DNA of 64,000 nucleotides from Streptomyces sp. SCUT-3 (GTDB taxonomy: Bacteria; Actinomycetota; Actinomycetes; Streptomycetales; Streptomycetaceae): assembly GCF_014083985.1 (NCBI RefSeq), contig NZ_CP046907.1, positions 5,900,501 to 5,964,500 on the forward strand, in the 5' to 3' direction. Of this stretch, positions 26,568 through 32,509 are shown in pieces. Position numbers and translations under genes: made by a program. Every line of letters starts with the position of its first letter. The first letter of the stretch is position 1. A model generated the notes under the pieces. The model saw only the letters and a list, made by a program, of their open reading frames with translations. It was not told where the DNA came from and made no database searches.

Positions 26568-26982
26568 GACGGGCAGGATAGGTCCTTGCCGTTGCCGCGC
26601 ACCTGCGAATTATGTCCAGGCAACCACCTCAATCCGTCGGTTCCCCGACCGGACCCGACAGTTCTGGCGTTTGTATCATGCTGCCCGCCGGAGCCGGACA
26701 GCATGACGCGCGGCGGCTCGGTCCAGCGCGCCGCCGCCGCGGGTTCGTGACCGGCCGAAGCCGGACCGCTGGTCACGCGGTGGTCTGCTGGTGAGGACGC
26801 GTAGTCAACTGTCGCGTGTTCCCGGTGTTGGTGAGCCTGGCAGTGACTTTTCGTGATCTCGGGGCGTGTCGGCTCCATGTCCCGCTGGCCTCGTTAAGGA
26901 GCCGACTTCCAGGCCGATGCTGGCAGCCACCTGGGGGTAACACGGCAAAAACCTTGCGTCGGCCGTGCCTGGTCAGGGTTGA
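26568..26982. other. Region holding a recombinase 3'-end relic and the pentapeptide gene leader
   Basis: About 415 bases. Bases 26777-26900 are homologous to the 3' end of the recombinase pseudogene at 28310-29844. The remainder shows no coding frame. GC content drops toward the right, before the pentapeptide gene. Confidence 0.6.
26777..26900 (-). repeat. Direct repeat flanking the pentapeptide gene, left copy
   Basis: Read on the minus strand this encodes LLNEASGTWSRHAPRSRKVT, matching RLRNETGGTWSRYAPGDHG at the end of the recombinase-like pseudogene. Nucleotide similarity to 28283-28405 covers about 120 bases, including the sequence just after the recombinase stop (CAACTGTCGC, CTGGTG). 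Confidence 0.6.
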
Positions 26983-28146
26983 ATGATGACCATGGTCAGG
27001 GGGACATCCCGGGGAGGGACTCACAGCGCTCGACTTCGGCGCATTGGTTCCAGGCTCCAGTCAGGCACTCGCGTGACCGACACGGCAGCCGTCGCGTCAG
27101 ATGAGGCAACGGCGGTCGGGCCACCAGGTCAGGGCGTCGACTGGGTGCGACGGGTCGAATTAGCGGGCGTGCTGGTGGCAATGATCGTGGGCATCGTGTC
27201 CATCTGGCATACCGAGAGATCGGTAAATCAGGTGCAGGAGGAGTTGAGTATCAGCCGGGAGGAGTTGCGCGCTACTCGGGAAGGGCAGATCACTGACCGC
27301 TACACGGCCGCAGTAGAGAATCTCGGTGATGATTCCCTTGATGTACGACTTGGTGGTATCTACGCGTTGAAGCGCATCATGCAGGACTCGCCACGGGATC
27401 AGGGCACCGTGGTAGATGTGTTGGCCGCGTATGTCCGCGCGCATGCGGTGCCGCCGAAGTCTGGGCAGAAGAGCCCTGAGTATCTGGACCGAGACGTGGC
27501 TGCTGCTGTCACAGTACTTGCGACGAGAGACCAGAGCCACGACCCACAGTCCCAGCTATACGATGGACTGTACCTCATCGACTTGAGTGGAACATGGCTG
27601 AAGGGCCTTGTCCTGCGCAAGGCCGACCTGCGTGGCGTGTACCTGAGGAATTCGAACCTCAGCGGCTCAGAACTACATGACGTCGACCTGGGCGGAGCTA
27701 CCCTCATCGGGTCAAACATGCGCAATGTGAACTTCTTTAAAGTAAATCTGGAAGATGCGGTGATGGACGGCGCCGACCTTCAGAACGCCAAATTGACTGC
27801 GAATCTGCAAGCAGCGGCACTGCGAGGTGCGAATCTCCGCCATGCCTACCTAGAATCGGCCATGCTACAAGGTGCAAACCTGGACAGGGCCGACCTGCGC
27901 GACACGCGAATGTGCACGACAACGTGCACATTCGAGGAACACTCCATTCAGGATGCCTGGCTGGTTGGGGCCGACCTCCGAGGGTCGAACATCAACGCAA
28001 AGAAACTTCTCAACGCAGCTTTCAACCACACGACTCGGCTGCCGGATTCGCTGGCGAACCACCCGAAAATCAAGCAGAGATTGGCCCAGTTGCACGGGCG
28101 ACTACCCGAGTGGAACAAGTCGGAGTGGGACGACTCGCCGGGCTGA
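26983..28146 (+). CDS. Membrane-anchored pentapeptide-repeat protein
   Basis: A 387-residue protein. One membrane segment lies near residues 58-75 (VELAGVLVAMIVGIVSIW). A coiled region follows (VQEELSISREELRATREGQI), then the conserved RYTAAVENLGDDSLDVRLGG with YALKRIMQDSPRDQGTV, and a right-handed beta-helix of A(D/N)LxG pentapeptides from about 195 to 310 (KADLRGVYLRNSNLSGSEL, GADLQNAKL, RGANLRHAYLESAMLQGANL). The architecture recurs in actinomycetes and has no proven role; it may be a membrane sensor or scaffold. Codon use is visibly poorer in GC than its neighbours, a sign of transfer. Starts at 26983, 26986 or GTG 27073 are all possible. It lies between two direct repeats. Confidence 0.8.
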   Translation: MMTMVRGTSRGGTHSARLRRIGSRLQSGTRVTDTAAVASDEATAVGPPGQGVDWVRRVELAGVLVAMIVGIVSIWHTERSVNQVQEELSISREELRATREGQITDRYTAAVENLGDDSLDVRLGGIYALKRIMQDSPRDQGTVVDVLAAYVRAHAVPPKSGQKSPEYLDRDVAAAVTVLATRDQSHDPQSQLYDGLYLIDLSGTWLKGLVLRKADLRGVYLRNSNLSGSELHDVDLGGATLIGSNMRNVNFFKVNLEDAVMDGADLQNAKLTANLQAAALRGANLRHAYLESAMLQGANLDRADLRDTRMCTTTCTFEEHSIQDAWLVGADLRGSNINAKKLLNAAFNHTTRLPDSLANHPKIKQRLAQLHGRLPEWNKSEWDDSPG

Positions 28147-28282
28147 CAGCGTTCGATGCAAGGCAGCCCGCGCCCTGGCCCGCCGCATGCGCAGATTCCG
28201 ACTCCACTTCAAGGTCGAGTGCACCCTCGGTGGCAGCACCGCCATGCCCATGAAAATCGTGTCACCCGCTGCGAACAGGACT

Positions 28283-28405
28283 CGGCGGCTTACTGGTGGG
28301 CTCGCGGATTCAACTGTCGCCGGTTCCCCAGGGAGTCCAGCCCGTTGGTGACCTTCCGTGATCTCCGGGGGCGTATCGGCTCCATGTGCCGCCGGTCTCG
28401 TTGCG
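28283..28405 (-). repeat. Direct repeat flanking the pentapeptide gene, right copy
   Basis: This is the real 3' end of the recombinase-like pseudogene plus about 27 bases beyond its stop, and it matches 26777-26900 in the same orientation. The pentapeptide gene is therefore bracketed by two recombinase 3' ends. Confidence 0.6.
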
Positions 28406-29844
28406 GAGTCGGGTGGTGGCCTTGTGGTGGTAGCCGAGCGCGTTCGCGACCACGGGGGCGGGCATGTCGAGGAGCGGATGGCGGCGCCGCGGGCAGCTGA
28501 GGCCGGGACCCCGATCTCGTTCAGCAGAGCGGACAGGTGATCGGGGCGGGTTGGCTGGTCGGCCCTGCGGCCGGGGAAGAGCAGGCGGGACGCCGGGTTG
28601 GTCGCGGTGTTCATGTTGCCGCGGTTCGCGATGTGCTTCAGCAGCAGGTCAGCGACCGGCTCGGGGCTCGGTGCGGGTGACTCCCCGAGCCGTAGCAGCA
28701 CCGTGTCGCCGTCGCGGATGATGTCGTCGAGGGTGAGTCGGACGATGCGGCTCACGGGCTGCGCGTAGAGGAACACAATGATTCCGGCGACCCGGAGCCG
28801 CGTCGGTGTCTCCGTGTCGGTCAGCAGTCGGCCGAGGACTTCGAGGCGCTCCTCGTCGCTCATTGCGGCCCGCCAGGAGACCTTCATGGCCAGGATGGAG
28901 AGGAAGCCTGGGCAGTGGCGGGTCTGCGTGGCCCAGTTGAGGAAGGCTCGCAAGCAGGTGCGGCCGTGTTCGGTGTTCTCGGCCCACCACGCGTCGATGT
29001 CGAGCTGGCCGCAGGATGCGAGGGTGGTGTTCCGCTCGCCGAGCCAGTGCAGGAATGCGGTCGCGTACTTGATCTGTTCGGCGGCGAACCGTCGGATGCT
29101 CGTTGTGATGTGGCTCCGTTCGGCGCGAGCCCTCAGCCGAGGGAGAACGCGCCAGGTTGCGTAGAGCTTGATCGTTTTGGCGTGCTCGGGGTCGGCGATG
29201 CCAGCCGGATGCCCGGGAAGCCAGCGCTGAAAGGAGCAGAGGTACTTGTCGGCCGCGGTAAGGACTCCGCACGCCATCAGGAGTTCTTCCAGGTGGGCGG
29301 CGGCCCGCCAGGGCTGGAGCTCGTGAAGGGCGTCGTGGGTCAGGGGGATTTCGCCGAGGCCGAGCCGATGCAGGAGTTGTGAGGCGTTTCCAGGCTGGCT
29401 GCGGCGCACCTCCAGCCAGGCCAGCCCGCTCCTGGGCTTGTCCATTGCCACCAGCAGGTCGAACAGCGGGACCAGCGCGGGACGGATGCGGCCGGTGCCG
29501 TCGTCCAGGAGCGCGGTGAGGCGGTCGGTGAGCGTGCAACGTTCGCAGAGCCGTCCGCGCAGGAGCTTGCCCTCGAAGCCGCAGCGTGAGCAGCCGAAGG
29601 TCTGGGAGAAGCCGGCGCAGGTGGTGCAGATCGCTGCCCCATCACCGGGGCGGAGCCCGGGAAGGGCTCGGGCCTGGCCGCATCGTGGGCAAGTACCGCG
29701 TGTCCGGACGGCGTGGTCCGAGCAGGTTCGGCAGACGTATCCGTCCGGCCAGGTGCCGGCTTTGTGCCTGCGGCGGCCGCAGCGGCAGCACTCGGCCATG
29801 TACCAACGTTCGTACTGTTTGTCGGTGGCGTAGGTGCGGGTCAT
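28310..29844 (-). pseudogene. Zinc-ribbon/tyrosine-recombinase-like protein, frameshifted at the 3' end
   Basis: The N-terminal third has several CxxC zinc-ribbon knuckles (CCRCGRRRH, CRTC, CPRCGQ, CTTC, CSRCG, CERC). The C-terminal half resembles a degenerate tyrosine recombinase (YAQPVSRIVRLTLDDII). After GVPASAARGAAIR the frame shifts by one base near 28470-28480. In the corrected frame the expected end appears: LLDMPAPVVANALGYHHKAT, then TRLRNETGGTWSRYAPGDHG, and a stop at 28310. It is the last of three genes joined by ATGA overlaps and resembles the third member of actinobacterial recombinase trios. The native role in integration is inferred. Confidence 0.7.
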
Positions 29845-30176
29845 GCGTCGGGCAGGATGCGAGCGGCGCGGGGCCGCAGCTTCGCGACGTTCGCGGGCGG
29901 GGCGGGCAGGTCGCCGGTGGCGGTCTTGCGGACTCCGGCGTTCTCGGCGGTGGTGACCACCAGGTCAGCCGGGGTGCAGGAGAGGATGTCGCAGAGCGCG
30001 GCCATGACCTGCAACGACAGACGTTCCGGGGTGCCGGAGACCAGGCGGTGGACCTGGGAGGCGGACAGGTCGATGCCGCGCTCGCGCAGCAGTGGCACCA
30101 GCTCGGTCGTGGTGAAGATCTGGTGCTGGGCCATGACCTCGCGCAGCCGCCAGGTGTAGCCGACCTTGCGTTTCAT
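29841..30176 (-). CDS. XRE-family protein of the recombinase trio
   Basis: A 111-residue helix-turn-helix protein of Cro/C1 type (WRLREVMAQHQIFTTTELVP, LLRERGIDLSASQVHRLVSG, ERLSLQVMAALCDILSCTPA, DLV) with a Pro/Ala-rich tail. It overlaps its two neighbours by four bases on each side, so it is co-translated with the recombinases and may control them or act as directionality factor. It is the only member of the trio without visible damage. Confidence 0.8.
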   Translation of the reverse strand: MKRKVGYTWRLREVMAQHQIFTTTELVPLLRERGIDLSASQVHRLVSGTPERLSLQVMAALCDILSCTPADLVVTTAENAGVRKTATGDLPAPPANVAKLRPRAARILPDA

Positions 30177-31300
30177 GCGTGCTTCCCGGGCTGGGTCTCA
30201 AGGGCCGCGGCGATGGTGGAGTCCAGGTGCCGCCGCAGGGTGCGGGTGCGGAAGCCCGAGGACACGCAGGTGTAGAGCGAGGTGGTGCCGGCGTGCTCAT
30301 GACCGACCTGCTCCTGGACGAAGCGCGGGTCCCAGCCGTCCTCGAGCAGGTGGGTGACGTAGGACCTGCGGAGAAAGTGGAAGTCGAGTCCGTCGTCCAG
30401 GCCGAGGGCCTTGCGGTAGGCGATGAAGCGGGAGTTGATCTGCTGGCATCCGAGCCGCAGGCCCCGTTCGGAAGGCCAGGCTGCCGGGTTGTTGTCGGTG
30501 CCGAACAGCGGGCGAACCTTGGTGAACCACTTGTTCAGGACGTCCGGGGTCCAGTCGAAGACGGTCAGCACCCCGCGGCGTTTGGGCGGGGATCCCTTCT
30601 TGGCCTTGCCGAATCGGACCTGGCCGCGGCCGTACTGGCCGAACTCGCCGCCGTGCGGGTTGCGGCCGAAGTCGGCGGCGTCGAGCATGCGCGTCTCGTT
30701 GCGTCGCAGACCGTAGGCGTAGGCGGTCTTGAACAGGGTCGCGTCGCGGAAGGCGGGGAGCCAGCCCTTGCGGCCGAAGGCTCGGATGCGGGCTACCTCA
30801 TCGTCGCAGTGTGCAAAGAAGGCGTGCAGCTCGGCCTTGGTGAATGCGCGCTTCTTCGCGTCCGCCTCGTTGTCCTGGACGTGCACCGCGGTGTTCCACT
30901 CGTGCACCACTTGGACCGGGTGGGTGCTGAACCGCTCCTCGCAGGTCGCCGTCCACTCGTAGAGCGGATCGGTGATGAAGTGGCAGAAAGCCCGCACGGC
31001 CTCGGAGCGCGAGCGGATCGTCGAGCGCTTCAGGTCCCGCAGGGAGCGATGGTCACCGAGCCACTCGTCGACCATCGCCGGCGTCCACAGTCACGGGTGG
31101 GCGTTCACGTAGGTCGCGAATGCCTTCACCGTGTTCTCCCGGCCCTCCACAGTTGTCCGGGCCAGATTTCGGGAGAGCTGCTGGTTAGCGAAGCCGGTCA
31201 GCATCGCCGCGAAGACCTGTTCCTCCGGCCGCAGCAGAGGCACCCTGTCGACCAGGTGCAGTCCCGCCGCCCCTGGCACCGGCCCGCTGAACCCCACCAT
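30173..31300 (-). pseudogene. Tyrosine recombinase/integrase with internal TGA
   Basis: The core-binding part (VPLLRPEEQVFAAMLTGFAN, QQLSRNLARTTVEGRENTVK) ends at a TGA at 31093-31091 after YVNAHP. The same frame then continues LWTPAMVDEWLGDHRSLRDL through the catalytic domain: Arg in AYGLRRNETRML, HFLRRSYVTHLL, GHEHAGTTSLYT (His and Tyr). Relatives have Trp where the TGA stands (HPWLWTPAM), so one G-to-A change explains it. ATG 31300 follows GAGGGTGGCGGA. Translation could restart at the GTG/ATG near 31075, giving a 300-residue protein with the whole catalytic domain but no arm-binding part. Confidence 0.8.
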
Positions 31301-31457
31301 TCCGCCACCCTCCGTCACTCGCATTAGGTGCGAGAAAACCGCATCCGATGCGAGAGGGCGGCAAATCCGCAGGCCAGCCATCCATACGAGTGACACAGCT
31401 GGCAACCACGATCCGAGCCCCGGTAGCGTCAGGTCCTGCTTCGAGCTCGTAACACGA

Positions 31458-31961
31458 TCATGAGTTGGCCTTCTTGAGGCGTCTCCAGCAGATGAGGCTG
31501 CAGGCGAGGGAGACGAAGGCGTCGTGGAGCTCGGTGCGGCGTTCCCAGCGGACGGCGAGGCGCTTGAACTGGTGGAGGAGGGCGAAGGTCTGCTCGACGA
31601 CGTAGCGGAGCTTGCCCAGGCCCTTGATGTTAGGCCTGCCCTTGCGGGAGATGACCGGCAGGATCCGGCGTTTGCGCAGTTCGCGGCGGTTGGGGTTGGA
31701 GTCGTAGCCCTTGTCTCCGAGGAGGGCCTCGGGGCGCCGGCGGGGTCGGCCCGGGCGGCCGGCGACGGGTGGGACTCCGTCGACCAGGGCGAGGGTCTGG
31801 GTGACGTCGTTGACGTTGGCCGCGGTGGTGATGACCTTGAGCGGGGTGCCGCGTCCGTCGCAGATCAGGTGGTGTTTGCTGCCCGTCTTCCGCCGGTCGA
31901 CCGGCGACGGACCGGTGTCGGCTCCCCCTTTTTGGCGCGGACGTGGGAACCGTCGACGCAT
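31458..31961 (-). CDS. IS5 transposase, C-terminal frame
   Basis: This frame carries the rest of the DDE domain: KGGADTGPSPVDRRKTGSKH (region after the first Asp), ICDGRGTPLKVITTAANVND, LLGDKGYDSNPNRRELRKRR (second Asp) and RYVVEQTFALLHQFKRLAVR (Glu). It has no good start of its own. A -1 slip at the AAAAAG of the upstream frame would give the uninterrupted family sequence HVRAKKGGADTGPSP. Confidence 0.85.
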   Translation of the reverse strand: MRRRFPRPRQKGGADTGPSPVDRRKTGSKHHLICDGRGTPLKVITTAANVNDVTQTLALVDGVPPVAGRPGRPRRRPEALLGDKGYDSNPNRRELRKRRILPVISRKGRPNIKGLGKLRYVVEQTFALLHQFKRLAVRWERRTELHDAFVSLACSLICWRRLKKANS

Positions 31962-32266
31962 GCTCTGGACCAGTCCAGCTCGCCGGCCGCGTGCAGCCTG
32001 GCGAGCAGGACGCGGTGCAGTTGGTCGAAGACTCCGGCCTGTTGCCAGCGCTCGAGGCGCCGCCAGCAGGTCTGACCAGAGCCGAACCCCAGCTCAAGGG
32101 GGAGCAGTTGCCAGGCGATGTCGTTGTACAGGACGTAGAGGATGCCCTGCAGGCACAACCGGTCCGACACGGGCCGTGGACCGGGAGCCTTCTCGGGCCA
32201 GGGTGGCAGGAGCGGCTCGATCAGCGCCCACAGGTCATCGTCCACGATCCACGGCCGGGTAGTCAC
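31865..32266 (-). CDS. IS5 transposase, N-terminal frame
   Basis: A 133-residue frame with the N-terminal domain (WIVDDDLWALIEPLLPPWPE, LCLQGILYVLYNDIAWQLLP, LGFGSGQTCWRRLERW) and the first catalytic Asp (RACVDGSHVRAKKG). After the GCC-AAA-AAG-GGG-GAG codons it leaves the family sequence and stops. The heptamer-like CAAAAAG is where ribosomes would slip by -1 into the second frame (plus-strand positions 31924-31935). Confidence 0.85.
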   Translation of the reverse strand: MTTRPWIVDDDLWALIEPLLPPWPEKAPGPRPVSDRLCLQGILYVLYNDIAWQLLPLELGFGSGQTCWRRLERWQQAGVFDQLHRVLLARLHAAGELDWSRACVDGSHVRAKKGEPTPVRRRSTGGRRAANTT

Positions 32267-32509
32267 ACCCTCTCGAACGGCCGAATCGTCACACCGGGCA
32301 CGGCCTACCAGGGCAGTTCAACAAGATCGTGTTACGAGCTCTTCAGGACCACAATCACCCTGGTTACGGCGATGAATTCGGCATCCTGCCAGGTCAAATC
32401 ACCGACCATCGCGAGTTCGCATCCGATGCAATTGGCGGGGCTCGGCACATCGGTACAGCGGTTGACGCCAAGCCGGTGATCATGGGCTTGGGGACCGCTG
32501 TTGACGGGC

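Follow-up and report, generated by a model that had tools for sequence, protein, structure and literature searches.

A pentapeptide-repeat gene between two recombinase-type ends

The window analyzed here, a stretch of 64,000 nucleotides from the genome of Streptomyces sp. SCUT-3, contains a three-gene operon on its minus strand. It is composed of intA, a tyrosine recombinase of approximately 390 aa in relatives (30173..31405; PF00589, E 6e-16), a gene for a small Cro/C1-type protein of 111 aa (29841..30176; HTH_26, PF13443, E 6e-18) and a recombinase-like gene, here called recB, whose in-frame part is located at 28467..29844. The 3' end of recB forms a right-end site (RE1, 28291..28386; RE profile match E 3e-22) with its CCAGTA end at 28291, and a second, outer site on the same strand (RE2, 26786..26879; E 9e-14) has a CCAGCA end at 26786. 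Between both sites, antisense to the operon, there is a gene (26983..28146, plus strand) for a 387-aa pentapeptide-repeat protein (Pfam Pentapeptide, PF00805, E 1e-26), which inspection of the letters by eye suggests to be membrane anchored. This cargo gene and RE2 make up the proposed cassette, bounded by the ends of RE1 and RE2 (26786..28290, minus strand, 1,505 bp), whose GC content (60.4%) is below those of the window (72.7%) and the operon (68.4%).

A preliminary description of this DNA had already recognized a low-GC pentapeptide gene between two direct repeats of ~120 bp, adjoining a recombinase-like gene that belongs to a three-gene set, and all of these observations hold. The repeats (within 28290-28415 and at ~26788-26904) share 75% identity over ~119 bp (E 2.7e-15 in a search of the 6.08-Mb genome) and are the only two significant matches there, the next best having an E value of 0.004. 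Both had been described as copies of the recombinase 3' end, and they do contain the last recB codons plus 19 bp past the stop, but they are not recent duplicates of each other, since their identity is just 75%; the left copy is closer to a site of another Streptomyces (L048, 83%) than to the right one. The left repeat is itself an RE-type site and not part of an unrelated intact gene, the alternative named in that description.

None of the 29 other loci with a homolog of the pentapeptide gene had an RE (up to eight mismatches, within the match and ~1.5 kb on each side), a result that gave no support to cassettes as a general vehicle of the pentapeptide family. A distant pentapeptide-like gene was found beside an RE in one case (L142, in genome G244). 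The DNA just outside the window RE2 (26600-26785) is 82% identical to a segment that is likewise beside an RE (G050:C1:828110-828287), and similar DNA was found in 4 of 119 genomes, in two of them as short partial matches; it is possibly another unit or another type of target.

On the other side of the operon, the alignment with relatives identified a left end (LE) consisting of an outer part (32342..32446, core at 32416-32433) and a remainder (~31094-31442), split by an IS5-type insertion sequence that is not part of the system (31443..32341; DUF4096, IS5 family, TTC flank on each side). LE is directly bordered on its outer side by the inner segment of a Tn3-type terminal inverted repeat (TIR; 32447..32488, E 1e-4 with a TIR profile trained on 16 left-end flanks and 4 intact repeats, 1/20 mismatches), all of these features being on the minus strand. 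No Tn3 tip was found at the window RE2, though the inner part is present at the left end, which counts against reading the locus as a cassette. Furthermore, intA has an in-frame stop (31091-31093), and the listed 580-aa recB ORF departs from the family frame near residue 460, a frameshift with respect to the 513-aa proteins of the relatives, which match up to query residue 457-460. Because of the intA stop, the recB frame break, the IS-split left end and the missing Tn3 tip at RE2, the window copy is probably inactive and represents a decayed example.

Ends, recombinases and cargo in related loci

The recombinase relatives comprised 25 loci plus a genome search in which 92 of 293 genomes gave a recB match (E <= 1e-10); further loci came from Nonomuraea, Sinosporangium, and Kitasatospora. 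The element in these relatives is laid out as intA-HTH-recB operon, RE1, short cargo, and RE2. The RE covers ~100 bp formed by the last recB codons, the stop codon and 19 bp ending in CCAGTA, so that the stop of the 513-aa recB is inside the repeat, 19 bp before its end. Its most constant part is the last ~35 bp (consensus AACTGGCGACAGTTGAATACGCGAGCCCACCAGTA), and a CTCGCG/CGCGAG inverted repeat is often present. Similarity between loci ends at LE, which lies ~470 bp upstream of the ATG used for intA, the first one in frame. Many relatives have a second RE 0.5 to 4.5 kb beyond the first; L059 has three REs and L048 four, and three consecutive cargo segments were found in one locus. Two RE-like ends in inverted orientation, ~3 kb apart, are present in a genome from a different family of the same order (L119, G013:C21:157500-161100), and REs of opposite orientation directly abut or overlap in L123 (3579-3708) and L138 (9532-9693).

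IntA (PF00589) has the conserved residues R, H-x-x-R, H and Y, which we take to be the tyrosine-recombinase motifs. RecB, a long, cysteine-rich protein, matched no Pfam or NCBIfam family; a profile search against the PDB gave a weak match to XerD (E 0.016), a recB-intA profile comparison gave none, and the structure predicted from 10 related sequences had a mean pLDDT of 37.9. The terminal tyrosine is kept in most aligned relatives, and those that are 30% identical are long proteins (755 to 865 aa for the intact ones aligned) from genomes of the Streptomyces group. RecB is a putative tyrosine recombinase, on account of its likeness to published long recombinases, the conserved terminal tyrosine and the weak XerD match; the absence of a firmer match counts against the cassette reading.

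The preliminary description had proposed that cargo is captured at a recombination site lying in the 3' end of the recombinase gene, and had suggested comparing the cargo found at the same site in relatives. We found 16 cargo groups in the 25 loci with at least two REs (L011, at the same place as L039, was left out), and the cargo was unrelated in 93 of 107 pairs with recB at least 85% identical, pairs that are not independent of each other. The 3,242 bp that extend from LE to RE1 are 96.9% identical in L044 and L050, and the DNA between RE1 and RE2 is unrelated; cargo is also unrelated in L041/L052 and in L059/L063 (backbones 96 to 98% identical), in L053/L048 (89.6%) and in L039/L049 (89.8%), while L047 lacks the cargo of L045 (backbone 92%). 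The window and L010 are 94.4% identical over 3,061 bp, with the similarity stopping exactly at the end of RE1. Where the complete element of a pair was aligned, the cargo switches at the end of RE1 or within ~20 bp of it, and the invariance among relatives that would have spoken against the proposal did not occur. A crossover within the GCGACAGTT core was discarded: the methyltransferase cassette takes along the outer 20 bp of RE2, and the backbones switch near CCAGTA.

The reverse situation, the same cargo with a different backbone, was found in six pairs (recB 66 to 68% identical, cargo 86 to 93%). The methyltransferase cargo of L014 is common to five loci (86 to 93%) whose recB genes are 67 to 68% identical to that of L014, and the cargo of L026 is 89% identical to that of L041 at a recB identity of 66%. 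Sharing that merely follows the backbone, as in L042/L043/L058, counts against the cassette reading, and so do four similar plasmids (L182, L191, L192, and L193) that, by annotation, show no polymorphism and have the same genes beside the RE. The cargo genes, found on both strands, include members of the families NUDIX, NTP_transf_2, Aminoglyc_resit, Peptidase_S41, methyltransferases, DUF6228, DUF6650, and alpha/beta hydrolase; several cargo proteins had no family match. Taken together, these comparisons support the idea of cargo capture, in a form broader than the one proposed. Read from the sequences, the refinement is that RE sites with cargo exist without the operon and that the whole unit sits inside a Tn3-family TIR.

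Tn3 ends and sites without the operon

The Tn3-type inner part was found outside LE in 15 of 18 left ends versus 154 of 40,000 random positions; two of the 20 loci (L040 and L050) had no LE by the motif used for this count, yet it is present in the left-end alignment. At the other end, the 9-bp tip CCGAGGCCG or TCANNCCCC follows 44 of 66 outermost REs ("outermost" meaning the last within the stretch examined; L010, L011, and L022, repeats of longer loci, were left out) versus 0.98% at random, and 10 of 41 internal ones. The 22 outermost REs without a tip count against the cassette reading. Since the 52 sites used to train the RE profile include many of the scored ones and the profile reaches 2 to 3 bases past CCAGTA, the tip was counted separately at sites found without using the flank, where it was present in 23 of 30 versus 608 of 60,000 random positions.

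The sequence of uninterrupted repeats is ...CGATGTTCC-CCGAGGCCG, with a 5-bp target duplication next to it in L115 and in L116, and a second type reads ...CGATGTTCC-TCAATCCCC in L182; both types fit an insertion 9 bp from the tip. The identification as Tn3 comes from a transposase (PF01526) enclosed by one TIR pair. With the inner part at the left ends and the tip at the outermost REs, the units therefore appear to enter one fixed point inside the TIRs of Tn3-family transposons. Another Tn3-family transposon (L175, G064:C12:194400-202100) carries a TetR regulator and an FAD monooxygenase-like gene.

A search with an RE 30-mer (up to three mismatches) found 53 sites in 37 of the 293 genomes, and the reversed pattern used as a control gave none among the matches listed. 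Of the 53, 18 were preceded on the same strand by a recB match at a distance of up to 10 kb, a count that used 28 recB places chosen from genomes also containing an RE. A complete recB was absent from 20 of the 37 RE-bearing genomes; when these 20 were searched again with a profile, 13 had no recB match at E 1e-5 and seven had pieces of residues 314 to 513 only, and a partial close intA was present in one of the 20. One cassette (96.7% identity over 853 bp) is located behind a recombinase-type RE in G187 and behind a Tn3 inner end in G210, while L141 and L134 show the Tn3 inner end, CAGTA, and then cargo ending in an RE. Among the operon-less cassettes, only these three (G210, L141, and L134) have cargo immediately preceded by a credible Tn3 inner end, and by the rule applied only L141 among them has a Tn3 tip after the RE; both facts count against the cassette reading. 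The search for joined empty sites gave half matches for the most part, plus a single decayed joint (L117/L098 in G057). This joint (L117, G057:C33:3000-6000, ~1400-1494), located within a Tn3-type repeat, connects LE directly with the decayed tail of a right end and may be the scar of an excision.

Cassette exchange, its alternatives and known systems

We assign a probability of about 0.6 to the reading in which the pentapeptide gene is the cargo of a cassette within a tyrosine-recombinase mobile element, RE1 being located in the recB 3' end and the cassette ending in its own RE. The operon would span from LE to RE1, which is built into the recB 3' end, a cassette would be one or a few genes ending in their own RE, and the operon itself would be one such unit that happens to encode the enzymes. 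We infer that the recombinases would act at the CCAGTA end of the RE, with the last ~5 bp (CAGTA) as an exchangeable overlap, and that a circle made of cargo and RE would then insert behind RE1 or directly into a Tn3 end, with later loss also being possible, the order of these events being part of the same reconstruction. More tentatively, at slightly under even odds, Streptomyces and related actinomycetes would have a natural gene-cassette system of their own, the second one besides integrons and independent of them, in which intA-HTH-recB collects, exchanges, and lines up cassettes at its own 3' end, stores them in Tn3 ends, and leaves operon-less cassettes behind.

Much of the same data would be explained by the main rival, which we regard as less likely: an ordinary Tn554-like transposon that moves from LE to whichever RE and, having landed beside a leftover RE, takes the DNA in between, so that cassettes never move alone and operons come and go in front of them. 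Units that extend from LE to the outermost RE within a single Tn3 end, flanked by the two halves of its inverted repeat, agree with this view, as does the frequent decay of RE1 next to an intact outermost RE (exact CCAGTA in 14 of 41 internal versus 54 of 66 outermost sites), and the Tn3 inner end-CAGTA-cargo arrangement may be what an operon left behind when it moved out of L141 and L134. However, the genomes with REs but without a complete recB, and the several cargo segments in a row in L048 and L059, need extra steps under this explanation, with which they are nonetheless compatible.

The cargo might also be flanking DNA left over from neighboring insertions of full elements, the second of which was then largely deleted, with no cassette logic at all. 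Longer recB pieces do persist in some second copies (residues 315 to 457 in L120 of G088, residues 422 to 458 in L048), and the Tn3 tips after some internal REs are what separate insertions would show. However, the cargo starts at the RE1 tip with no left-end sequence in between in L016, L042, L043, and L052 (GAAGGCCAT) and likewise in L058 (GAGGGCCAT), and the same cargo is found behind recB genes only 66 to 68% identical, which makes this tandem decay distinctly improbable. A duplicate of the recB 3' end produced by chance or gene conversion, with no role in mobility, finds nothing in its favor beyond the window itself, and given the recurrence of the arrangement in 25 loci with varied cargo and at Tn3 ends we consider it extremely improbable.

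If cassettes do move, this would be gene capture by interchangeable cassettes outside integrons, in bacteria that make many antibiotics, and the cargo seen includes aminoglycoside-nucleotidyltransferase-like, methyltransferase, and NUDIX genes. An insertion site inside the recombinase gene would tie the enzyme of the platform to its own site, with Tn3 ends serving the cassettes as a target and possibly as a vehicle.

Integrons carry short cargo, often a single gene, with each cassette ending in a site of ~100 bp and forming arrays, and integron sites without an integrase nearby are known as CALINs. The elements described here resemble them in their short, often single-gene cargo that ends each time in a ~100-bp site, in their arrays, in the presence of sites without a recombinase nearby, in nucleotidyltransferase-like and methyltransferase cargo, and in cassettes of one or a few genes plus a site that appear to be exchanged between platforms (16 groups in 25 loci, shared at recB identities of 66 to 68%). 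However, there is a three-gene operon instead of IntI: the window intA scored 37.5 bits against integrase_gron (TIGR02249), whose cutoff is 265, and recB matched no family. In addition, the site is in the 3' end of the last recombinase gene, whereas attI lies beside the 5' end of intI; the cargo genes point both ways, the host site is a Tn3 end, and the arrays are short. Attachment sites that fold as single strands, similar to attC, were rejected here: the eight REs analyzed gave z values from -2.27 to +1.81 and no common structure, only one of them folding clearly better than its own shuffles, and recombination of double strands is therefore likelier than the integron route. Judged by these features, the system is integron-like in how it appears to work but is not an integron.

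As in Tn554-like transposons, insertion appears to be directed to a specific attachment site, which here is one point inside Tn3-type inverted repeats and differs from the attachment site of Tn554. The small gene codes for an HTH_26 protein rather than a TnpC-like one, as judged by family and position and not by direct comparison with TnpC. The Tn554-like transposons of actinobacteria, which pair a long tyrosine recombinase with a typical one, are similar in having an integrase of typical size, a longer partner, and a small third gene; here, however, this gene (HTH_26) is between the other two and recB has 513 aa, and the part of that account consulted describes neither element ends nor a Tn3 target or cassettes (PMC3414803). 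GInts, as far as the portion of their description consulted goes, consist of three integrases plus a small protein and carry 2.5 to 70 kb of cargo (PMC5385486). They share with our elements an operon of integrases and a small HTH-type protein, variable cargo, a short 3' end, imperfect direct repeats, and variants of the attachment site, but the window and the relatives inspected have two large genes and a small one, and that portion does not present GInts as small cassettes at a recombinase 3' end or as specific for Tn3 ends (PMC5385486).

Site-specific insertion inside a TIR of the Tn3 superfamily is shared with the IS110-type insertion sequences that target the TIRs of the Tn21 family, which, in the sections of that report consulted, have neither an intA-HTH-recB operon nor cassettes (PMC8269217). 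PAISt of Streptomyces turgidiscabies is likewise a mobile element with modular excision, which makes use of a copy of the attachment site inside the element, but the excerpt consulted describes it as a large conjugative island with an 8-bp palindromic site (PMC4057263). We found no description of recombinase-3'-end cassettes in the parts of the open literature consulted, a weak absence given that most subscription journals lie outside it.

Sequences related to recB are also present in 258 plasmid records, 125 of them from Streptomyces, and RE-like sequences in 60, of which 57 are from Streptomyces. In two plasmids (L184 and L185), the recB match is in two pieces over ~2.4 kb, as if interrupted by an insert. 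A third (L186, 4545-9077) has REs and a methyltransferase gene upstream of an annotated integrase-HTH-recB operon and another RE downstream of it.
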